This document shows positions 3,635 to 14,996 of a DNA stretch of 30,681 bases, one piece after another. Source of the stretch: a virus; IMG/VR virus record IMGVR_UViG_3300017951_000070, positions 1 to 30,681 of that record. One strand, 5' to 3'. The notes beneath the pieces are model-generated. The model was not told the origin of the DNA, did not search any database, and saw nothing but the letters and a program-made list of their open reading frames with translations. Positions within the stretch are counted from its first letter, which is position 1. The number at the start of each line of letters is the position of its first letter. Both the position numbers and the translations under genes were made by a program.

Positions 3635-3933
3635 GCTTGCCCGTTGAAGGAAGCAAGGACTCAAAGAAAACCCATTTGTTGAAAGTCTGGAAGCAAACGG
3701 GGAAGAAGCCCCAAGAGCTTCAAGAGCAACCGGAATGCCCCCAAGAATTCGTTTACATTTGGGGTTGGTTCCTTGACCTAATGCCGGGCGGGGGCTTCTC
3801 TTGGGCAAATTTGGACGCTTGGGCACGTCTCACGGGGATAAATCCGACCGCTTACGAAACAAGGTTGCTTTCCCGCTTACAAACCGTCTATTCTTCGGCG
3901 GTAAATGGAAAACGTAACAAGCCTAGTTCTTAA
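3191..3933 (+). CDS. Frameshifted tail assembly chaperone G-T fusion
   Basis: The frame ending at 3933 overlaps gpG in the -1 frame and is open from before the slippery site. In the gpG frame the codons CTT TTT TTC (3575-3583) contain the heptamer T TTT TTC, a classic -1 slip site. A slip there joins gpG residue 131 to QARARQLEQFARSEFGLSL and onward, a 116-residue extension giving a 247-residue product. The junction reads as a smooth helical sequence, and -1 frameshifting at this locus is widespread in siphophages. The T part would recruit the tape measure protein. A separate TTG start at 3637 is possible but less likely. Confidence 0.75.
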
Positions 3934-6079
3934 AGTCGAAAGCGGACAAGTCACCTTGACACGCAAGGAACTTGACAAGCTTTCGGGTTCGTCTGTCCGG
4001 GCGGAAAAGACAACGGACAAAGTGACAAAGGCTTTCACCCGGCTTCTTGGCCCTTTGCTTGCGACGGTTTCAGCTTACAAAGGGCTTCAAAAACTTGTAA
4101 GCACAACCCGGGAATTTGACATTCTGAACGCTCAATTGGTTACGGCAACCGGGTCCGCCGAAAACGCGGCAATTGCATTCGAAGCAATTCAGGACTTTGC
4201 AACCAATACCCCCTTCCAGCTTCAGGAAGTGACCGAATCCTTTGTTCAATTGGTCAACCGGGGGCTTGACCCTTCCGAAGAGTCCTTGACCAATGTTGGC
4301 AACTTTGCGTCCGCGTTCGGGCGTAATATCTTAGACGCAACCCGGGCAATCGGGCAAGCGACAACGGGCGAGTTCGAAAGCCTGAAGCAATTCGGGATTG
4401 TTGCCCGGAAGGAAGGAGACCGGGTCAAGTTCACGTTCCGGGGCATGACAACCGAAGTTGCCTTTAATGCCCGAGAAATTCAAGGTTACTTGAATGACCT
4501 TGCGGCAAACAACTTTGCCGGGGCAATGGAAGAGCGAATGAACACCCTTGACGGTGCTTTATCGAATCTTGCCGACTCATGGGACAAGTTTTGGCTCACC
4601 GTTTCGCAAAGCGGTTCCGGGGCGGTGATTGAGGAAGCGGTTCGCGGGCTCATAATGTCAATTGAAACCTTGACCGCCATGTTGCAAACCGGGGACGCGG
4701 CGGACGGCATGAACGAACTTGTCTTTGAAGCTGAAGACTTGCGGGACGCCTTCCTTGCTGTCGGCATGGTGACAAATCGACTTTGGAAGACAACCAAGCT
4801 TGGGACCAAGTCCGGGGAACTGGCAATTCTTGGTCTTTCAACTGTAATTTCGGAAGTGCTTTACGGGTCCCTTATCGGTGCCGCCGATTTGGTTGAACTT
4901 CTAATCAATAAATCAGTTGGCGGGGTCAACCAAGCGATTGACGCAATCAATGACTTGTTCAACAAGCTTCCGCAAAAAGCTCGGGAACTGATTGGGCTTG
5001 AAAGCGAAATTCCGTCAATCGAACTAGATTTTGACATTGATACAACCAATCTTGAGCATTACCGGGAAGTTTACCGGGCGGCAACGGTAAGCACTAAGGA
5101 CGAATGGTTGAAGCTTTACGACGAACTTGCCAACGCGGACGAAGCGTTTCTTGCCCGGGTAAGTGCATCTTTGGACAAGCTTGCCGCCGGGGGTGCAACG
5201 GGACCAGACCGTTTACGCGGCTTCGGCGTTGGGGGTGACGGCAATGACGGCCCGACTTCGGAAGAGTTGCGGGCACAAGACGCGTTTGAAAAGTTGCGGG
5301 AATCTTTGCTTACTGAAGAAGAAGCGATTCAAGAAAGTTACGAGAAGCGAAAGCAAATCATTCTTGATTCGACTTTGACGACGGAAGAAGAAAAAGCCCG
5401 AATCATGGACCGGCTTGAAAAAGCTCACGCGGAAGAAATCCGGCAATTCGAAATGCAACGTTGGAACACCGCCCTTTCAAGCTTTGACGACTTCCAAAAC
5501 AATCTTCTTGTCCTTGCCCGGACGGGCTCAAATGAGCTTGCCGGGATTTACAAGGCGGCGGCAATAGCCAACACCATTATCAAAACGTATGAGTCCGCAA
5601 CGTCGGCTTATGCGGCAATGGCGGGAATCCCGATTGTCGGCCCGGCCCTTGGCGCGGCGGCGGCGGCGGCGGCGGTTGCGGCGGGTCTTGCAAATGTTCA
5701 GGCAATCGCTTCCCAACAAGTCGGCAACTATGCAACCGGCGGCATTGTCCCGGGCAACAGCTTCAACGGGGACAACCTAAACGCCGGGGTCAATTCCGGG
5801 GAAATGATTTTGAACTTTTCCCAACAAAAGCAACTTCTGGACATGGCAAACGGCAAGGGCGGCGGGTCAAAACCCATAACCGTCAATGTCCAGAATTATG
5901 GCAACTCGGATGTTGAAGTTTCCGAAGAAGACGCCGGGGAAGAACGTATTATCAACATTGCCGTTGGGCGGGCGAAGCGGGAGACCAAAAGGGAACTTGC
6001 TTCAGAAATCCGAACCGGGACCGGGGACGTTTCCCGGTCAATGGAGTCTTCTTACAACCTGAAACGGGGGACCGCGTAA
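3905..6079 (+). CDS. Tape measure protein
   Basis: This 724-residue protein sets tail length and occupies the tail tube lumen. The N-terminal part has the typical tape measure domain: TTREFDILNAQLVTATGS, then FATNTPFQLQEVTESFVQLVNRGLDPS and GRNILDATRAIGQATTGEFESLKQFGI. The middle is helical and acidic, and near the C-terminus lies a hydrophobic GIPIVGPALGAAAAAAA segment, also typical. With roughly 0.15 nm per residue, the tail would be near 110 nm. ATG at 3905 overlaps the end of the chaperone T frame by 29 bases, as is usual for translational coupling. Confidence 0.92.
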   Translation: MENVTSLVLKVESGQVTLTRKELDKLSGSSVRAEKTTDKVTKAFTRLLGPLLATVSAYKGLQKLVSTTREFDILNAQLVTATGSAENAAIAFEAIQDFATNTPFQLQEVTESFVQLVNRGLDPSEESLTNVGNFASAFGRNILDATRAIGQATTGEFESLKQFGIVARKEGDRVKFTFRGMTTEVAFNAREIQGYLNDLAANNFAGAMEERMNTLDGALSNLADSWDKFWLTVSQSGSGAVIEEAVRGLIMSIETLTAMLQTGDAADGMNELVFEAEDLRDAFLAVGMVTNRLWKTTKLGTKSGELAILGLSTVISEVLYGSLIGAADLVELLINKSVGGVNQAIDAINDLFNKLPQKARELIGLESEIPSIELDFDIDTTNLEHYREVYRAATVSTKDEWLKLYDELANADEAFLARVSASLDKLAAGGATGPDRLRGFGVGGDGNDGPTSEELRAQDAFEKLRESLLTEEEAIQESYEKRKQIILDSTLTTEEEKARIMDRLEKAHAEEIRQFEMQRWNTALSSFDDFQNNLLVLARTGSNELAGIYKAAAIANTIIKTYESATSAYAAMAGIPIVGPALGAAAAAAAVAAGLANVQAIASQQVGNYATGGIVPGNSFNGDNLNAGVNSGEMILNFSQQKQLLDMANGKGGGSKPITVNVQNYGNSDVEVSEEDAGEERIINIAVGRAKRETKRELASEIRTGTGDVSRSMESSYNLKRGTA

Positions 6080-6590: not shown

Positions 6591-8738
6591 ATGCCAACAC
6601 TCAAAGAACAAGTTGAAGCGGTCGTTGCCGACCTAGTATTGAACGAAGCCCGCCTTGACGTTTGGGTGAATGGGACCGATTCCCAAGATTACACCACAAG
6701 CGGCGGGGCAACTGTCCCTTCCATCAGGAAATTCATTGCTGAAACGTTCAAGTTTCAAGGCACTTATGCCGCCGGGGGGACCAATTACACAATTGGGCAA
6801 ACCTTCAAAGGGGCAACCGGGGACGACCGTTACAAAATGTTCCGGGTGACGGCAAATTTTACTTCAACAACTTTCGCCGGGGATTCGGCAAGCTACGAAA
6901 CGCTTTTTGACTTTGCCCAAGTGGTTGCCGACGCCGAAACCGCACAAGCGGCGGCGGAAACCGCACAAGCGGCGGCGGAAGCGGCACAATCGGCAACCGA
7001 AGCCGTTTTTGACAGTTTTGACGACCGGTATCTTGGAACCTTTGCTTCGGACCCGACACAAGACAATGACGGCAACGCCCTTCAGGACGGTGCTATTTAC
7101 TGGAATACCACAAGCAACACCCTTCGCTTTTATGACTTGGGCAATACGGTTTGGGTTGACCCGACAACGGACGCGGCGGCTTCAGCTTCGGCGGCGGCAG
7201 CAAGTGCCGCTAATGCTGCTACTGCTGTTGCTGGTAAAGCCTTTGCGGGTGGGGTGCAGTTTGCCAAAACAAGCCCAACTTCCACCACAGATTCAGGGAA
7301 TGCAGTTGTTCCCGCACATCTTGATTTCTCGAAGCCTTTTTCAATCTCAGTTATTTGCAGTTTTGACTACACTTACACTCAAAGTGAGAACGACAGTATT
7401 GCTGCCGTTTTTCAGGGGGGTGGAACGGGCGCAGGGGTTATTCTTGACCGTTGGCGCGTGGATGACAACACCTTTGATGATTCCGAAATCATCATCGATT
7501 TGGGCACTCGATATGGAACAGGCTACATTGCAGACTCCGCGAGGACATACCATTTTGTTGTCACTTTTGATGGTTCTGACCTAAAATTCTACGCGGACGG
7601 GGTTCTTGAATTTACCCAAGCTTCTGCAGATGTTTCAAACGCCCCAGATGGTAATATCATCCTCGGTGAGGATGTTGCTGGTTTTAGCCAACTAGCTGGT
7701 TCTCTTTGTGATTTTGCCACCTTCAACCGCGCCCTCTCGTCAGCAGAAGCAGCAGCACTTTACAACCAAGGCTTGCAAGGTTGGCTTGCTGCCAATCCTG
7801 GAAACAAGTGGGGCAGCCCAACGGCAGAAACGGAAGACTTTGAGGATGGGACCACAACGCTGAGCCCTGGGTTGTCTCTTAGTGGTCTCACTGTAAATGA
7901 TTTCGGTGGCACCGAGGCGAATTACGATGGAGTCGCGGACCCAGACGGTATTGGAGGGGCTTCTAGCGGGGACCACTGTTATAAATTTACTGTTGGTGCC
8001 GGGATAAATGGGATTCGTATAGGGTATAGTGGCGGTGAGGGTCTTTTCTTGATTAGTTTTGATTATTACAACCCATCGGCAAACACCCCTGACCTGAGTT
8101 GGGCCTCGCCAGATGTTACTGTTTTATCTGGCAACCTTTCCACTAAGGATGCGTGGACATCTGTGGCTTGCTTGGCGTACGTTTCTTCAACCAATGGCCC
8201 TATTTTGAGAGTTCAGGAAGATGGAGCAACTAGCTATTACGACAATTTTGAAGTGACCAAACTAGGTTGCCTTGCTGCCCTGCCGATGGATGAAGGAATT
8301 GGCTACCAGTTACATGACCTGTCGGACAACAAGTTTGATGCTCTGCTTTCCACAAGTGGCTTTGAGCATTTGAAGCCAAAGCGCGAAGGCTTCATTCGGG
8401 ATTTTAACGTTGACGCTTACAATGGGGGTAGTGGTGAGGTTGAACTTGTTTCAAGTTCCCGGGATATTTTACCGGCAAATTGTGTTCTTGTTGACGGGTC
8501 TGTTCGAAACAATGGCGGGGCGGCAATTACCGCCGGGGCGTTGGACGTTAAAAGGTCCGACCGGACAACCCGAAACACGGTTGGCGACAATAACGGAATC
8601 CTGAACGCGGGGAACGTTGAAGGGATTACGTTTACAACCGATCAAATCCCGGACGACAACAATATTGCCTTGGACGCTTCAACCGATTCGGACGCAACGG
8701 ACGTTGACGTTCGGGTTGACTACGAAATGATTGACTAA
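6591..8738 (+). CDS. Tail fibre with LamG/ConA-like lectin domain
   Basis: This 715-residue protein is a likely receptor-binding fibre. Residues about 1-110 form an N-terminal attachment region. An Ala-rich stalk with three 7-residue repeats (ETAQAAA type, residues about 116-136) follows, then a short domain and a second Ala-rich linker (about 197-212). Residues about 215-395 look like a LamG/ConA-like jelly roll: FVVTFDGSDLKFYADGV and FATFNRALSSAEAAALYNQG are characteristic. A second beta domain follows, then GIGYQLHDLSDNKFDALLS, seen at the end of other phage fibres, and a C-terminal beta region. Codon use changes sharply inside the gene (about 7200-8450), which suggests a swapped receptor-binding module. 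It lies between minor tail and DUF4376-like genes. Confidence 0.8.
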   Translation: MPTLKEQVEAVVADLVLNEARLDVWVNGTDSQDYTTSGGATVPSIRKFIAETFKFQGTYAAGGTNYTIGQTFKGATGDDRYKMFRVTANFTSTTFAGDSASYETLFDFAQVVADAETAQAAAETAQAAAEAAQSATEAVFDSFDDRYLGTFASDPTQDNDGNALQDGAIYWNTTSNTLRFYDLGNTVWVDPTTDAAASASAAAASAANAATAVAGKAFAGGVQFAKTSPTSTTDSGNAVVPAHLDFSKPFSISVICSFDYTYTQSENDSIAAVFQGGGTGAGVILDRWRVDDNTFDDSEIIIDLGTRYGTGYIADSARTYHFVVTFDGSDLKFYADGVLEFTQASADVSNAPDGNIILGEDVAGFSQLAGSLCDFATFNRALSSAEAAALYNQGLQGWLAANPGNKWGSPTAETEDFEDGTTTLSPGLSLSGLTVNDFGGTEANYDGVADPDGIGGASSGDHCYKFTVGAGINGIRIGYSGGEGLFLISFDYYNPSANTPDLSWASPDVTVLSGNLSTKDAWTSVACLAYVSSTNGPILRVQEDGATSYYDNFEVTKLGCLAALPMDEGIGYQLHDLSDNKFDALLSTSGFEHLKPKREGFIRDFNVDAYNGGSGEVELVSSSRDILPANCVLVDGSVRNNGGAAITAGALDVKRSDRTTRNTVGDNNGILNAGNVEGITFTTDQIPDDNNIALDASTDSDATDVDVRVDYEMID
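6936..6998 (+). repeat. Three tandem 21-bp repeats in the fibre stalk
   Basis: Units at 6936-6956 and 6957-6977 are identical; the third at 6978-6998 is degenerate. They encode the ETAQAAA / ETAQAAA / EAAQSAT heptads, consistent with a trimeric coiled-coil stalk. Confidence 0.85.
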
Positions 8739-8748
8739 AGGGGACCTT

Positions 8749-9360
8749 ATGAACGAACCATATTTGCAAACCGTAACGCTTGAAGGCTTCCATTTCCGCA
8801 AAGCGGGCAAGGGTGGGGCTTACCGTGCCAACCTATCACAAAGCCCGCTTGAAGGCGGTTTTGGGGCAACATGGGACCCGGAAACGTTGACCTTGTCTTA
8901 CTTCACCCCCAACCCGGACGACGAAGAAGGCAATCCGGTTGAACCAACCCCACAAGAACTTGTTTTCACCCAAGCGGAAATTGACGCTGCCCGGGACGCT
9001 TTGTTTGGGTTCAACTTGGAAGCCAAAAAAACGGCCAAGATTGGGGTCATTGCCAAGAATTGTGAAGCCGAATACACGGCGGACTTTGTTTCAAGCGATG
9101 GAATCCCTTTGCGGGCTCACGTTGAAGCAAACATTGACGTGCAAATGCTCATTGAGTCATTGGCCCCCCTTGAAGTGTTTCCCGGTTATAAATGCGCGGA
9201 CGGGGTCTTTCGGGACATTACCCGGGAACAATTCCAAACCGCCCTTCTGGAAGGTGTAACGCGGAAAGTGACCGCCTTTGCCAAACGGAAGACATTGACG
9301 GACCAAGTCAACGCGGCGGCAAACCAAACCGAACTTGAGGCAATCCCAAATTGGATTTAA
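8749..9360 (+). CDS. Fibre-associated protein with DUF4376-like C-terminus
   Basis: This 203-residue protein follows the fibre gene. Its C-terminal part (ITREQFQTALLEGVTRKVTAFAKRKTLTDQVNAAANQTELEAI) resembles DUF4376, a helical domain common in proteins encoded next to tail fibres and thought to help fibre assembly. The N-terminal part is beta-rich with PETLTLSYFTPNPDDEEGNPVEP. An in-frame TTG exists at 8731, but the ATG at 8749 is preferred: it is preceded by AAAGGGGA at 8737-8744, one of the very few Shine-Dalgarno-like sequences in the window. Function is inferred from resemblance and position. Confidence 0.55.
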   Translation: MNEPYLQTVTLEGFHFRKAGKGGAYRANLSQSPLEGGFGATWDPETLTLSYFTPNPDDEEGNPVEPTPQELVFTQAEIDAARDALFGFNLEAKKTAKIGVIAKNCEAEYTADFVSSDGIPLRAHVEANIDVQMLIESLAPLEVFPGYKCADGVFRDITREQFQTALLEGVTRKVTAFAKRKTLTDQVNAAANQTELEAIPNWI

Positions 9361-9363
9361 GAT

Positions 9364-9666
9364 ATGACAAATCAATTTGCCGAATCCGTCCCTTACGTAG
9401 CCGGTGCCGCAACCGCCTTAATTGGCGTTGTCGGGCAAGCGGACGTTTCCTTTTGGCTTCAAGCGGGCATGGCGGGGGTTGTCGTCCTTCTTTTGCTGAA
9501 GTTCTTCCCGATGCTTATGAAGCATCTTGAAGAGAAGGACAAACGGCACGAAGAAACCATTCGAAACATTGTTGAGCGCAACGAGAAAAAAGACGAAGCT
9601 TGGCAAAAAATAGTTTCGGACCGGGGAATTTGCCCGGTTTCAACTGACAACCAAAACCAACAATGA
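9364..9666 (+). CDS. Small membrane protein, putative holin
   Basis: This 100-residue protein has a hydrophobic region: a possible weak segment around residues 10-25 and a strong one at about 31-49 (LQAGMAGVVVLLLLKFFPM). A long charged helix rich in Lys and Glu follows (KHLEEKDKRHEETIRNIVERNEKKDEAW). Small proteins with N-terminal membrane helices and a charged cytoplasmic tail near the fibre genes are often holins, which permeabilise the inner membrane at lysis. The gene overlaps the lipoprotein gene by ATGA. No endolysin is certain in the window, so a lysis role is inference. Confidence 0.45.
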   Translation: MTNQFAESVPYVAGAATALIGVVGQADVSFWLQAGMAGVVVLLLLKFFPMLMKHLEEKDKRHEETIRNIVERNEKKDEAWQKIVSDRGICPVSTDNQNQQ

Positions 9667-10334
9667 AAAAGAAAATCCACACACTACTAACAGTTACGGC
9701 GGTTTGCTTCGCCGGGCTTTTCCTTACCGGTTGCGACTTTGACGAAGTCGCGGGCTTTGCCGTTTCTGAAACCGGGGGCGAATATGTTGTTACTGACACC
9801 TTTGACAACACCTTGACTTTTACTCGGGACCAAGCCCGGCAAATTGCGGACTTGGGGCAAGACGACGCCCAAGCTTTCCTTGACGCCCGTTTTCGTTCCA
9901 AGTTCCCGGAAAGTTACGCGGACCCCGAAGCGGAATTTGCAATTTCCGAACAAAGGACGGTCCCGGTTGACGTGCAAGTTTCCCCGGGGGCTCAAGCTTT
10001 GGCAGAAGTTCCCGGAACGGTTGCCCCCGGCGTCGGGACGGCGGTCAGTGTCGGCTTGAATACGTTGTTGGGGCTTGGACTCATAATTTACCGGCAAAGG
10101 AAGCTCAAGCAATTGTCACGCAAAGACGCGGCGTTGAACGGTGCCGGAAGACTCATTGACGGCATTTACAACGTTGCGGAAGTCATGCCCGACAAAGACC
10201 AAGGAAGGCGGGTTGTCCGGGCGGTTGAACAGGGACTTGACCTTGTCGAAAGCGTTGCCGGTGCCGCCGAAGAACTGAAACAAGCGGTCAAACGGACGGA
10301 AACCCCTTCAATTGACACAAGGGTTTACGAATAA
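9663..10334 (+). CDS. Phage lipoprotein with internal membrane helix
   Basis: The 223-residue product begins with a lipoprotein signal peptide: KKK, a hydrophobic core, and a lipobox LTGC with Cys at residue 24. The following 90 residues, likely outside the cytoplasm, are acidic and include a TFTRDQARQIADL helix. A second hydrophobic segment at about 118-140 (GVGTAVSVGLNTLLGLGLIIY) ends in RQRKLK, and a basic then helical C-terminal part follows. This predicts a protein tethered at both ends of its periplasmic portion. Roles could be lysis (spanin-like) or exclusion of superinfecting phage; no family is recognised. It is translationally coupled to the putative holin and followed by a terminator. 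Confidence 0.6.
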   Translation: MKKKIHTLLTVTAVCFAGLFLTGCDFDEVAGFAVSETGGEYVVTDTFDNTLTFTRDQARQIADLGQDDAQAFLDARFRSKFPESYADPEAEFAISEQRTVPVDVQVSPGAQALAEVPGTVAPGVGTAVSVGLNTLLGLGLIIYRQRKLKQLSRKDAALNGAGRLIDGIYNVAEVMPDKDQGRRVVRAVEQGLDLVESVAGAAEELKQAVKRTETPSIDTRVYE

Positions 10335-10355: not shown

Positions 10356-10393
10356 AATCCCCGGTTAAGCTTAGCTTGCCGGGGATTCTTTTT
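10356..10393 (+). terminator. Rho-independent terminator after the lipoprotein gene
   Basis: A 9-bp perfect stem AATCCCCGG (10356-10364) / CCGGGGATT (10379-10387) with a 14-nt loop is followed by CTTTTT. It ends four bases before the DUF1353-like ATG, so that gene depends on read-through or an unseen promoter. Confidence 0.8.
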
Positions 10394-10396
10394 GCC

Positions 10397-10954
10397 ATGT
10401 CACGCGGACCCAACTTTAAACCCTCAGCAAAAGACCCGAACCCGGTTCAAGCATGGTATGACCGTCTTGAAAAAGGACGTTTCGGGGGCAATGCCCCGCT
10501 TTGCCAATGGATAGGACCGGACCTTTGGCTCTATCACCCGGACAAGCATTTCCCTTTTTTCTTTGAACGGGCGAACGGCGAAAGGATCACCCCCGGCGAA
10601 ATCCGGGGTGGTTTGGTATCATTTGACACCGACGGCGGAAGCATTCCCGATTATGTCCGGGGCTTGCCCAATATGTCCCGTTGGCACTTCGGCGGGGCTT
10701 ATTTAATCCATGATTGGGAATGGCATTTGCATTCACAAGGTTGGCCGGTCCGCTCGTTTCAAGAAACAAACCTTGTCTTGTGTGAAGCGGTGAAGACACT
10801 TATTGAAGACGGTTACATTTCGCACGACTCTTTTCAAGGAGACGCCGGGACGGTCCGCAATATTTACCGGGGCGTCCAAAGCCCTTTTGCCCGCCATAAA
10901 TGGGACAACCACACAAAAGCCAAACAAACCCCTTTAGACAATGCCGAACACTAG
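10397..10954 (+). CDS. DUF1353-family protein
   Basis: This 185-residue protein matches the DUF1353 pattern: a strand-rich start, FDTDGGSIPDYVRGLP (family: TDxASxPR), then FGGAYLIHDWEWH (family: AAxxHDxLY) and a helical end. DUF1353 is frequent in phages and its function is not established; the conserved Asp and His-Asp residues suggest a metal or catalytic site. Position after a putative holin and a lipoprotein makes a cell-wall or lysis role possible, but that is inference. ATG at 10397 is chosen because the longer frame begins inside the terminator. The end overlaps the next gene by 14 bases. Confidence 0.7.
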   Translation: MSRGPNFKPSAKDPNPVQAWYDRLEKGRFGGNAPLCQWIGPDLWLYHPDKHFPFFFERANGERITPGEIRGGLVSFDTDGGSIPDYVRGLPNMSRWHFGGAYLIHDWEWHLHSQGWPVRSFQETNLVLCEAVKTLIEDGYISHDSFQGDAGTVRNIYRGVQSPFARHKWDNHTKAKQTPLDNAEH

Positions 10955-12023
10955 CTTAGACGACGCCATAAAGGAAGCTTACGCCCAAGCCAAAGAAGAC
11001 GTTACAATTTTTGAAACCCTTGAAGTTGTTTCCGGAACCGCTTCAAGTGAACGGGAACATATTGAAGTTGTCTTTGTTCTGGATACTTCCGGTTCAATGG
11101 GTAATGAAATTGTTTGGCTCAAGAACGCTTTGCCAAGTCTCTTTTCAACGCTTCAGACTGAGTTTGTTTCGGTCCGTTTTTCCCTCATATCTTTTGGGCA
11201 ATCCGCCAACAGTGGAAACCCAATCTTACAATCCGCATTTGTTACGGACCCTTCCCCAATTGTCACAATTTTAAATGGGCTTACCGCAAACGGAAGCCGG
11301 GAACCGGTGTTTGACGCAATCAGTTTGGCAACCCAACAATTCGGTTGTTCGGCTTACAATGTTTACAAGTGCATTGTCGTCATTACCGACGAAGACGGCG
11401 AAGACTCCGGGCAAATTGAAAGCCAAGGGTCTATCTCGGTCAAGCTCGCTTCAAAGGGTTTAACCCTTCACCAGACTTGGGCAAGTTCCGGTTCGTCCGC
11501 CCTTCGGACGCTTCAGGAAGAAACCCTCGGTTCATACATTCGCCGGACCAACGAAACGGATTTTAATGCGGACACCCTTGAGGCCCTCCAAAATGCCATT
11601 GTTGTGGACCCGAACCTTGAACCCATTTACATGGTCCAATGTCACGAAGAGAAAGAATTTACCCTTGAGACGGGCGAAACGGTAACCTTTGAACCCGTCG
11701 GCTTCCGGTTCCAGCTTCCCGGGCAAAATGACCGGGGCGTTTCCGAACTAAATATTGCAATTGACAATGTTGACCGGCGAATTGGGGATTTTATCAATTC
11801 CGCTCAAACTTTTGACGCCCCGATTTTGGTCCGTTACCGTCCTTACTTGTCAACGGACACTTCCGCCCCCCAACAAGACCCGCCCCTTGAATTGGTCTTG
11901 TCGGACGTTCGGGTAACTCAATTTGAAGTGACCGGGCGGGCAACGTTCGCGGACATTGTCAACTTGAAGTTCTTAACCGAATATTACAACCGTTGCCGGT
12001 TCCCTTCGTTGGGCAATACCTAA
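10941..12023 (+). CDS. Tail tip protein: DUF1833 (lambda gpL-like) with nested VWA domain
   Basis: The 360-residue protein combines two known folds. Residues about 1-30 (DDAIKEAYAQAKEDVTIFETLEV) and 227-355 (IYMVQCHEEKEFTL, then FRFQLPGQNDRGVSELNIAIDNVDRRI, ILVRYRPYL..DTSAPQQDPP.ELVLSDVRVTQFEVTGRATFADIVN) form a DUF1833 tail protein, the usual gpL position next to an NlpC/P60 gpK-like gene. Residues about 40-220 are a von Willebrand factor A domain: VVFVLDTSGSM holds the DxSxS metal site (48-52), the second-loop hydroxyl is likely T115 or S119, and ITDEDGED (148-155) gives the third. DUF1833 proteins are normally about half this length. The VWA domain may bind a host surface ligand through metal coordination. 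ATG at 10941 overlaps the DUF1353 end. Confidence 0.8.
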   Translation: MPNTSLDDAIKEAYAQAKEDVTIFETLEVVSGTASSEREHIEVVFVLDTSGSMGNEIVWLKNALPSLFSTLQTEFVSVRFSLISFGQSANSGNPILQSAFVTDPSPIVTILNGLTANGSREPVFDAISLATQQFGCSAYNVYKCIVVITDEDGEDSGQIESQGSISVKLASKGLTLHQTWASSGSSALRTLQEETLGSYIRRTNETDFNADTLEALQNAIVVDPNLEPIYMVQCHEEKEFTLETGETVTFEPVGFRFQLPGQNDRGVSELNIAIDNVDRRIGDFINSAQTFDAPILVRYRPYLSTDTSAPQQDPPLELVLSDVRVTQFEVTGRATFADIVNLKFLTEYYNRCRFPSLGNT

Positions 12024-12433
12024 TGGAAGCTTTTGAATTAGTCGGCAAGCCTTGGGTCCCGGGCGGGCGTGGTCCGGCGGCGTTCGATTGTTGGGGCTTG
12101 GTCATGTTTTGGATGGCAAACAAGACCGGACAAGACTTGCCGGACTTCCCGGCGGAAGCAACGGACGTTTTGGCGGTCACAAGGTCTTTTCAGGAAGAAC
12201 GCAAGAACAAGACCCAATGGGAGCAATTGGCGGTTCCTGAAGTCAATTGCGTCGTTGCCATGGGGCGGAACAAAACAATCAATCACGCCGGGGTTTATTT
12301 GGGCGAAGGTTTGGTTTTGCATTCTTCCCGGGACTCGGGCAAAGTCGGCATTCAGAAAATTGACCAATTGCGGCGGCAATGGTCAAATGTCCATTTTTTC
12401 AAATACCATGATTGGCGTTGTTCAGATTCTTAA
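12023..12433 (+). CDS. NlpC/P60 tail tip peptidase (lambda gpK-like)
   Basis: This 136-residue protein has the NlpC/P60 cysteine peptidase layout. FDCWGL places the catalytic Cys at residue 23, preceded by VPGGRGPAAFDC; NHAGVYLG puts the catalytic His at about 88, followed by LHSS. Such domains at the tail tip cut peptidoglycan cross-links locally during DNA injection. Lambda gpK also carries a JAMM domain, which is absent here, so this is a minimal form. The frame is open further upstream, but ATG at 12023 overlaps the upstream stop (TAATG) and is preferred. The end overlaps the next gene by 26 bases. Confidence 0.85.
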   Translation: MEAFELVGKPWVPGGRGPAAFDCWGLVMFWMANKTGQDLPDFPAEATDVLAVTRSFQEERKNKTQWEQLAVPEVNCVVAMGRNKTINHAGVYLGEGLVLHSSRDSGKVGIQKIDQLRRQWSNVHFFKYHDWRCSDS

Positions 12434-14996
12434 CCCATTTGAAGCCGGGAAACCCGGCTCTTACAAAGGAACTTCGGTAAACCCGGGTTCAAGCGTTTGG
12501 AGTATTTTAAAGGGTCTTGGCATCACGAACCGGGACCAAGCCTTTGTTGTCTTCGTTGACGAAACGCCGGTTCTTGAAGAAAGCGGACAATGGAACAAAC
12601 CCCTTGAAGACGGGCAAACGGTCAAAATTTGCCCGGTCGTTGAAGGTGGAATTGTGGTCTTGATTATTGCCATTATTGCAATTGCCGCAGTTGCAATTGC
12701 TTTAACTTTGACGGTCCCCATTCCGTCAACCCCCAAGCTTGCCGAACCGGACCCGGTTTACAGTTTACGCGGGCAAACCAACCAACTGAAACTTGGGGAC
12801 CCTATTGAATGCCCTTACGGGCGGGTTCGGCTTTGGCCTAGCTACGGGGCGAAGCCCTACAACCAATATATAAACAATGAGTCTTTCCAATACCAATTGT
12901 TTTGCTTGGGGCACGGTCAATTTCAGATTGAGCAAAACGAAGGACAAGACCATATTTTAATTGAAGACACCCCAATTCACGATTTCGCGGACATTGAATA
13001 CGAAGTTGTTGGACCAAATGAAGACGTGACCCTTTTCCGGGATAATGTTCAAACTTCGTCCGAAGTCGGAAGCGTAGAACTTTACGGACCGAATGAAGGC
13101 GAATATGATTCTTGGTTTGAAGCGGTTGCCAACGACGCCGGGACGACAACCAACTTGATTGAAGTTGACGTTATTTTACCCCGGGGTCTTTACCGTCAAA
13201 ATGATTCGGGCGGGCTTCAAAGAGTGACCGTTGAGGCAACTTTTGAATACATCCTTATTGACGATGCTGGAACAGAGTTGGGGGCTTGGACGAATTTGAC
13301 CAACTTTTCAAAAAGTTTGGCAACGGTAAATGCAAAACGTTTCACCCTTTCTTTGTCGGTCCCTTATGGACGTTACAAAGTCCGGGGACGCCGGACAAAC
13401 AACGCAAGCAATAGCCATAAAGTTGGGGGCACCCTTGTTTGGGAAGCTCTGCGGGCTTATTTGCCCAACGTCGGGAATTACGGGCAAGTCACCATGCTTG
13501 CGGTCAAAGCCCGTGCAACGGCAAATTTAAATGACCAATCGGAACGCAAATTTAATCTTTACGTCACCCGGAAGCTTCCGATTTACAACACGGGAACCGG
13601 CACTTGGTCAACCGCAACGGCAACCCGCAATCCGGTTTGGGCTTTTTGCGATATTTTCCGGGCAACCTATGGGGCGAACCTTGCGCAAAAATACCTTGAC
13701 CTTGACTCGTTGGCGGCAACGGCGGCAACCCTTGACACCGAAGAAAGTTATTTTGATTGGGTGTTTGATTCTGAAGTTACAGTTTGGGACGCGGCAAAAG
13801 TCGCAAGCCGGGCGGTTCGGGGAATTCCACTTTTGTCCCCTTCCCAAGTTTACATTCAGTTGGACCGGCCCAAGACCGTGGTTCAACACCTTTTCAACGG
13901 GGAAAATATTGTTGAAGACAGTTTTGAAAGAAAAGTAACTCTTTGGAAGCCGGAAGAATTTGATTCGGTTGAAGTGGAATACCGGGACCCGGACACTTGG
14001 AAACAAGAACGGGTTGTTTGTGCTTTGCCCGGGTCTTTCGGGGACAAACCGAAGAAAATCATTCTTTCCGGGGTGACGGACCGAAACAAAGCATTCCATG
14101 AAGGAATGTTTTTAGTCTCAACTAAGAAATACCAACGGGAAGAAGTCACCTTTACAACCGGGGTTGAAGGGCTTCTTGCGACTTACGGGGACCTTATCAA
14201 AGTCGAATTTGATTGCTTGGGCATTGCTGAAACCGTCGGGGGTTTCATTGAATCAATCGAAGAAGACAACGTGACAATAAATCTTACCCGGGAAGTCAAT
14301 TTTGATGATTCTTACAGTTACCGCTTGTTTATCCGGGGCAAAGACGGGACGCCTTACGGACCTTACACGGTAACCGCCGGGGCAAATTCAAAACAAGTTG
14401 TTTCGGACACTGAAGTTTCAAGCAACATTGTTTTCAACTCATTTGCTGAAGCCCCGCTTTTCATTTTTGGGCGGTCGGTAAGCTTCGGGAAAGATTGCGT
14501 CATTACCGGGCTTCGTCCTTCTGACAACGACACCGTTGAAGTGACCGCCGTTGTTTATGATTCTAGAATTTACGCTTACGACAACGTTGACGCCCCGGAA
14601 TTAAACAACCCTTCCGTCTTGCCGCCAAATATCGCCTTGCCAACGGTGACCGGGGTTGGACTAAACCGGGTTGAAGGGGACCTTTTCAAAATTACTTGGA
14701 TTGGGTCCGCAAGTGCCCAATATTATATTGTGCAAACTTCCCCGGACGATTTACCCCTTTTGGATTCGGACAAAACTTGGGAAACAATCGGACAAACGGA
14801 AGCAACCTTTTTCGAGACAACACTTTTGACGGAAACCGCTTACATTCGGGTTGCCGCCGTCAACTTGGGACAAGGCCCTTGGGCTTATTATGAAGAGCTA
14901 ATTGAGGGGGCAACCCGGGTCACACAAGGCACAACAACCGAACAATCCTTTACACGGGTCACGCAAGACGGCAACATTAGAACAACTCAACCTTAA
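12408..14996 (+). CDS. Tail tip attachment protein, gpI/gpJ-like fusion
   Basis: This 862-residue protein is the central tip protein. Residues about 1-78 (MIGVVQILNPFEAGKPGSYKG, then a beta-grasp-like segment ending VKICPVVEGG) and a hydrophobic segment at about 79-102 (VVLIIAIIAIAAVAIALTL) resemble lambda gpI, here continuous with the J part. The rest has gpJ features: YSLRGQTNQLKLGDPIECPYGRVRLWPSYGAKPY, WAFCDIFRATYGANL, ESYFDWVFDSEVTVWDAAKVASRAVRGIPL, VEVEYRDP and a late fibronectin-type segment (FKITWIGSASAQYYIVQTS). It builds the tip and often contacts the receptor. The frame stays open about 340 bases upstream inside the peptidase gene; ATG at 12408 is the coherent start. Confidence 0.85.
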   Translation: MIGVVQILNPFEAGKPGSYKGTSVNPGSSVWSILKGLGITNRDQAFVVFVDETPVLEESGQWNKPLEDGQTVKICPVVEGGIVVLIIAIIAIAAVAIALTLTVPIPSTPKLAEPDPVYSLRGQTNQLKLGDPIECPYGRVRLWPSYGAKPYNQYINNESFQYQLFCLGHGQFQIEQNEGQDHILIEDTPIHDFADIEYEVVGPNEDVTLFRDNVQTSSEVGSVELYGPNEGEYDSWFEAVANDAGTTTNLIEVDVILPRGLYRQNDSGGLQRVTVEATFEYILIDDAGTELGAWTNLTNFSKSLATVNAKRFTLSLSVPYGRYKVRGRRTNNASNSHKVGGTLVWEALRAYLPNVGNYGQVTMLAVKARATANLNDQSERKFNLYVTRKLPIYNTGTGTWSTATATRNPVWAFCDIFRATYGANLAQKYLDLDSLAATAATLDTEESYFDWVFDSEVTVWDAAKVASRAVRGIPLLSPSQVYIQLDRPKTVVQHLFNGENIVEDSFERKVTLWKPEEFDSVEVEYRDPDTWKQERVVCALPGSFGDKPKKIILSGVTDRNKAFHEGMFLVSTKKYQREEVTFTTGVEGLLATYGDLIKVEFDCLGIAETVGGFIESIEEDNVTINLTREVNFDDSYSYRLFIRGKDGTPYGPYTVTAGANSKQVVSDTEVSSNIVFNSFAEAPLFIFGRSVSFGKDCVITGLRPSDNDTVEVTAVVYDSRIYAYDNVDAPELNNPSVLPPNIALPTVTGVGLNRVEGDLFKITWIGSASAQYYIVQTSPDDLPLLDSDKTWETIGQTEATFFETTLLTETAYIRVAAVNLGQGPWAYYEELIEGATRVTQGTTTEQSFTRVTQDGNIRTTQP

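Follow-up and report, generated by a model that had tools for sequence, protein, structure and literature searches.

The window analysed here is a stretch of 30,681 nucleotides of viral DNA (IMG/VR record IMGVR_UViG_3300017951_000070, positions 1 to 30,681). One of its tail genes raises the question of what a von Willebrand A (VWA) domain, with a nearly intact metal site, is doing inside a minor tail protein. In the usual view, hub proteins form the conserved ring and plug of the tail, and recognition is the task of the fibres and J. The open-access literature searched contained no account of a VWA domain in a siphophage hub; viral VWA proteins have been described as chaperone partners, paired with MoxR (PMC7824862, PMC7911831). 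The domains themselves are known, and the recurring arrangement in which they are found here appears to be undescribed.

A DUF1833 domain interrupted by a VWA domain

The gene (10941-12023, plus strand) begins with ATG, has an intact frame with no internal stops, and encodes a predicted tail hub protein of 360 aa with DUF1833 and VWA parts, as judged from the ORF, Pfam, PHROG and an AF2 model. In Pfam, DUF1833 (PF08875) matches residues 226-348 with 98 bits (cut-off 21), covering profile positions 27-149, while VWA_2 (37.9 bits, cut-off 27) and VWA (35.7 bits, cut-off 23.8) both match residues 43-160 above the gathering score. When residues 1-36 were joined to residues 223-360, the DUF1833 score rose to 105 bits and the match extended over profile positions 1-149 of 150. 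The only PHROG family found, the minor tail protein family phrog_396, scored 114.7 bits with the whole protein and 124.5 bits with the flanks joined. These gains show the VWA to be a clean insert in one domain, and the ORF amounts to one DUF1833 domain whose first beta-hairpin is interrupted by an entire VWA. The nesting proposed by the sequence-only reading is thereby confirmed: the inserted residues match VWA profiles above their cut-offs, and the flanks together form one DUF1833 match.

The first part of the DUF1833 domain (residues 1-33; 10941-11039, plus strand) consists of the N-terminal helix (residues 4-16 of the model) and the first strand (residues 23-31), and is delimited by the joined-flank Pfam match from profile position 1 and by alignment with uninterrupted relatives. 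The inserted VWA domain (residues ~37-222; 11049-11606, plus strand) is defined by Pfam VWA/VWA_2, the model, Foldseek and homologous inserts in the related proteins L032, L024 and L025. The second DUF1833 part (residues 223-360; 11607-12020, plus strand) is seen by Pfam, PHROG and the model. The usual DUF1833 domain is uninterrupted and about 160-200 aa long (a customary size, not a curated criterion), whereas the window protein contains an insert of about 190 residues. In the closest insert-free relative, which is 57% identical in the DUF1833 part, the empty site reads TLQLSHPALTETIYMVQ, and the same junction in the window protein reads TLEVVSGTASS-[VWA]-DPNLEPIYMVQ.

The AF2 model built from a 51-row alignment (pLDDT 84.5, pTM 0.71) shows strands and helices alternating over residues 40-219, mostly at pLDDT 70-95 in that span, with hub strands 23-31 and 229-232 bracketing the VWA. 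Four partial VWA rows of the alignment were misplaced but four full-length rows were correct, and the model was therefore retained; a model from the single sequence (pLDDT 34) was discarded. Foldseek returned 373 PDB matches to the retained model at E<=0.001, and among the 50 matches listed, most are known VWA-containing proteins (the anthrax-toxin-receptor VWA, a TFIIH subunit, integrin beta, Ku and the pilus protein PitA). The Rossmann-type VWA fold, on which the sequence-only reading had staked its proposal, is thus present in the model and backed by Foldseek. With VWA matches filling the list, any structural equivalents of the hub domain would not show in it.

The host domain and its gene neighbourhood

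The DUF1833 profile shows a weak match (E 0.0024) to the solved structure of gp16 from Shigella phage Sf11 (9occ_F). This is the 'Baseplate hub 1 protein', of which each virion has three copies; its structure is reported to resemble that of the phage chi counterpart very closely (PMC12724387). The DUF1833 host domain is most likely a trimeric hub, with the N-terminal hub domain of lambda gpL as its structural counterpart (PMC10721106), an identity that is likely rather than proven because the Sf11 match is weak. The earlier description of the protein as lambda gpL-like therefore holds only in the sense of a probable structural or positional equivalence, given the match to Sf11 hub 1, and fails at the level of family. 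No gpL-family profile matched the window protein in Pfam at E<=10 and the cysteine-ligated iron-sulfur C-terminal domain is absent, so that the protein would correspond to part of gpL and is not itself a gpL.

By Pfam and PHROG, the window encodes adaptor, neck, terminator, tail tube, tape measure, fibre, hub, NlpC/P60 and J-like proteins. The tape measure gene (3905-6079, plus strand; PHROG) precedes a gene for a tail fibre-like protein with a Laminin_G_3 lectin domain (6591-8738, plus strand), likely the receptor-binding protein of this phage. Directly after the hub gene, and overlapping it at TAATG, lies an NlpC/P60 peptidase gene in the gpK position (12023-12433, plus strand, start codon approximate; Pfam 51.8 bits). 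It is followed by a gene for a gpJ-like central tail protein (12414-14996, plus strand, start approximate; Pfam and PHROG), which has an FNIII-A domain and a weak Lambda_tail_I match near its start. This neighbourhood agrees with the tail-tip location, beside NlpC/P60 and J-like genes, that had been assigned to the protein from sequence, but the suggestion that the VWA acts as a trigger for the adjacent peptidase found no support.

Three further features of this region were observed. In the interval 6591-9360 the fibre-like gene is followed by one for a DUF4376 protein, a possible fibre assembly factor. Possible lysis genes (a small membrane protein and a lipoprotein-like protein) lie at 9364-10334, between the fibre and hub genes, and split the tail module. 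The gene directly upstream of the hub gene (10376-10954) is 65% identical to the hub-upstream gene in L032/L112, and has only a weak DUF1353 match.

The metal site is conserved while the domain diverges

An alignment of 15 tail-tip VWAs placed the MIDAS residues of the window protein, all encoded on the plus strand: the motif DTSGS (D48-x-S50-x-S52; 11082-11096), S119 aligned with the MIDAS threonine (11295-11297), and D150 of ITDE as the fifth MIDAS residue (11388-11390). All 15 retain the first D and the second S of DxSxS as well as the final D; the first S is kept in 14 of them (T in L032). At the threonine position T is found in 12 of the 15; the window has S, L024 has I and L032 has D. 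The site had been read as intact; D48, S50, S52 and D150 are indeed present, but the threonine is replaced by S119. Of the two second-loop candidates offered earlier, T115 and S119, the alignment favours S119 and makes T115 less likely. The window VWA thus keeps a nearly complete MIDAS and is predicted to bind metal. That the site residues are retained in copies with identities down to 26% speaks for a metal site that is in use.

The VWA as a whole changes quickly. Between the window protein and L032, the VWA is 32% identical and the flanks are 62% identical; between L024 and L025, the corresponding values are 70% and 84% (dN 0.28 vs 0.11), with dN/dS well below 1, although dS is near saturation. 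A VWA diverging faster than its own host domain is as expected of an exposed interaction surface, and would also fit weaker constraint. The adjoining NlpC/P60 protein has diverged to a similar degree (39% identity between window and L032), so that the VWA is not alone in changing fast.

Related hub proteins with the same insert

Searches of viral contigs with degenerate MIDAS and DUF1833 patterns, the only approach by which they surfaced, gave three further distinct DUF1833-VWA proteins with the VWA at the same place: L024 and L025, 30-31% identical to the window protein over the whole length, and L032/L033, at 43%. The alignments from which the patterns were made included some artificial variant rows, and one or two altered letters in another, which shaped the searches and did not count as evidence. 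A tblastn search of 50,697 phage records with the VWA as query gave no matches, and scans of close relatives likewise gave none. Counting the window, a VWA is carried by 4 of about 97 distinct DUF1833 proteins, a non-random sample since L024 and L025 were picked up via the VWA motif, and no other domain-sized insert was seen among these segments. Apparent long matches in pVco-14 and KpF5 represented spill-over into the upstream gene, and these were rejected as insert carriers. A close relative, L001, has no VWA. In a tree built from the DUF1833 parts, the window groups with L032 (100/98) and L024 groups with L025 (100/100), and a single origin of the four DUF1833-VWA proteins was neither shown nor rejected (AU p 0.41).

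Two secreted-looking proteins (L026:2416-3525 and L027) combine MopE-type metal-binding motifs with a VWA resembling the hub VWA, and represent a possible cellular source.

VWA domains in a second hub family and in other tail-tip proteins

The best viral structure match of the window model is a Pamexvirus protein, PaMx28 gp30, in which a VWA at residues 25-202 interrupts a hub protein of the PF09931 family, named 'Baseplate hub protein, N-terminal attachment domain'. PF09931 hubs with a VWA at the N-terminal hairpin occur in the cultured phages PaMx28, Mallos, QH3 and Bordetella MW2, while those of SCUT-S3, Eidolon, R6L and RcTitan are uninterrupted; within Septimatrevirus, the QH3 hub has the VWA and the SCUT-S3 hub does not. 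Alignment with the uninterrupted hubs places the insert between ELYRF and the next strand, VWT. When PaMx28 gp30 was compared with INPHARED, 755 records matched, most of them through the hub region; for its VWA, matches came from 20 records, which by name represent 13 phages.

The profile of the PF09931-type hubs finds a solved protein, 'Baseplate hub 1 protein, gp27' (8vjh_D), at E 3.8e-19. By hhalign, no relation was found between the DUF1833 and PF09931-type hub profiles (probability 0.3%), and a profile built from the DUF1833-VWAs detected no relation between the VWAs of the two hub families. As neither the hub families nor their VWAs are related by the profiles tried, the insertions in the two families are probably independent. 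The two inserts nonetheless seem to occupy an equivalent hairpin, judging from N-terminal strand order, the separate matches of each family to a solved hub 1 protein, and the statement on chi in the Sf11 paper.

Hubs are not the only tail-tip proteins with a VWA. The J-like proteins of PaMx28, QH3, MW2 and R6L carry one, as does that of Mallos by its motif, and in L028/L029 the carrier is an unrelated J-like protein, encoded after lambda-like tail genes. In RcTitan, the VWA of the Dit-like gp22 falls below the Pfam cut-off and has a clear PHROG match. The MIDAS is nearly intact in DUF1833-hub, PF09931-hub, J-like and Dit-like VWAs. The sequence-only reading had called an adhesion module of this kind at the tail tip unusual, which is true of DUF1833 proteins (4 of about 97 in the insert survey) and too narrow for tail-tip proteins, where the VWA recurs.

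Several details of these loci may be added. In the Pseudomonas phage PaMx28 (NC_028931) the hub gp30 (L147:25170-26618) and the J-like gp33 (L147:27059-29893) each carry a VWA, and are publicly annotated as tail assembly protein and tail protein. The hub and J VWAs of one phage are alike, with 43% identity in QH3 (L152) and 34% in MW2 (L151), which hints at copying between tail-tip genes. The lambda-like tail module of L028:1780-5091 and L029 includes gpL-, gpK- and gpI-like genes, and its J-like VWA lies at residues 412-539. RcTitan gp22 (L154:2274-3998), encoded between tape measure and hub, belongs to phrog_1082 and is weakly DUF2460-like; it is a third type of tail-tip protein able to carry a VWA.

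Possible role of the hub VWA

It is on balance probable that the hub VWA is an accessory, metal-dependent adhesin at the siphophage tail tip. The gene would encode the trimeric hub-ring protein, and the VWA, placed in the loop of the first beta-hairpin, would probably be present three times per tail, outside the tube and near the contact between tip and cell. The trimeric state and the outward position are suggested by analogy with Sf11 and lambda and by domain size, since three 20 kDa domains cannot fit the tail lumen. A divalent metal bound at the MIDAS would then engage a host surface structure by coordinating one of its acidic or polar groups, so that the VWA holds the tip to the cell while fibres and J perform specific recognition. 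Both the metal and the host-surface ligand are predicted; an adhesive role is favoured by the usual role of VWAs, the location at the tip, the retained MIDAS and the patchy, mobile distribution. Counting against it are the variable MIDAS threonine and the separate lectin-like fibre of the same phage, which may be sufficient for binding. The close relatives without a VWA, L001 and SCUT-S3, indicate that it is dispensable at the lineage level.

Several rival functions are less likely. Domains of the VWA/MIDAS type often serve contacts between the proteins of a complex, and the MIDAS could bind a tail fibre or other tip protein through an acidic residue of the latter, anchoring that part to the hub. 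The fibre gene (6591-8738) is indeed in the same module as the hub, and the VWAs in both hub and J-like protein of MW2, QH3 and PaMx28 could pair with partners. Such docking is nevertheless unlikely, as gene order is the same in SCUT-S3, without the VWA, and in QH3, with it, and no partner gene obviously comes or goes along. Recruitment of a MoxR-type AAA+ ATPase for assembly or as a chaperone would have precedent in the MoxR-VWA pairs of jumbo phages and archaeal viruses (PMC7824862, PMC7911831). It is highly improbable for the window VWA, which sits inside a structural protein; the scanned genes of the window, which at 30.7 kb may be a fragment, include no MoxR/AAA+ partner, and none is listed in the 50 kb of PaMx28 annotation read.

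Integrin-type VWAs switch shape, and the two ends of the insert lie in one ring-domain hairpin of the AF2 model, a mechanical link through which ligand or metal binding, as in integrin I domains, might pass a change to the hub ring and open the tail. We regard such a conformational trigger as quite unlikely: uninterrupted hubs presumably eject DNA without a VWA, and sequence does not separate a switch from a simple adhesin. The patchy distribution of the VWA and the likeness of hub and J copies within QH3 and MW2 would also suit neutral or selfish segments that recombination has passed between tail-tip genes and that serve no selected function. The retention of metal-site residues across very diverged copies, together with the low dN/dS of L024/L025 (dS near saturation), makes this explanation distinctly improbable.

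The preferred reading, a metal-dependent adhesin, can be extended beyond the window. As another hub family seems to carry a VWA at the matching loop, the domain is probably a reusable adhesion module and not a one-off oddity. It is conceivable, if somewhat short of probable, that a metal-dependent VWA adhesion module has been acquired by siphophages several times, independently, at this one hub-ring loop, and in J-like and Dit-like neighbours, as a general class of host-gripping device, previously undescribed and separate from tail fibres. If true, a recurring, MIDAS-conserving VWA at one ring loop would add another mode of attachment, comparable to that of integrins and of the adhesins at pilus tips. 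The work also identifies a hub loop that tolerates a folded domain of 190 residues. Cultured carriers of a VWA hub (PaMx28, Mallos, QH3 and Bordetella MW2/CN1/CN2/FP1) make the adhesin idea directly testable. Type IV pili are used by AXL1, a phage of the same genus as PaMx28 (PMC9206674), but its apparent hub counterpart by size and place, gp44 (259 aa), is too short for a VWA, so that pili are only a lead.

Comparison with known systems

The window protein belongs to the same family as the DUF1833/phrog_396 minor tail proteins (98-105 bits), but the ordinary members, of about 160-200 aa, have no insert, and Sf11 gp16 (156 aa) has no VWA. Like lambda gpL, it is encoded between M-like and J-like genes; gpL has a [4Fe-4S] C-terminal domain, whereas the window protein ends after the hub domain. 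It shares with the hubs of PaMx28, Mallos, QH3 and MW2 (PF09931 and PF09356; phrog_15205/phrog_778) a VWA at the N-terminal hairpin, a gene after the tape measure and an intact MIDAS, and differs in that the PaMx28-type hub carries a C-terminal PF09356 domain, which DUF1833 proteins do not have. VWA domains have likewise been recruited to the phage-tail-like attachment structures of eCIS particles, but there they occur in the tail fibres (PMC12923769), whereas the window VWA lies inside the hub ring protein. The pilus and surface adhesins PitA, integrin beta and ANTXR2 have, like the window protein, a VWA fold with a MIDAS, although they are cellular proteins with identities of ~12-18% and the window VWA sits on a virus tail hub. 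Several pilus and surface VWA adhesins also bear the VWA as an insert within another domain.
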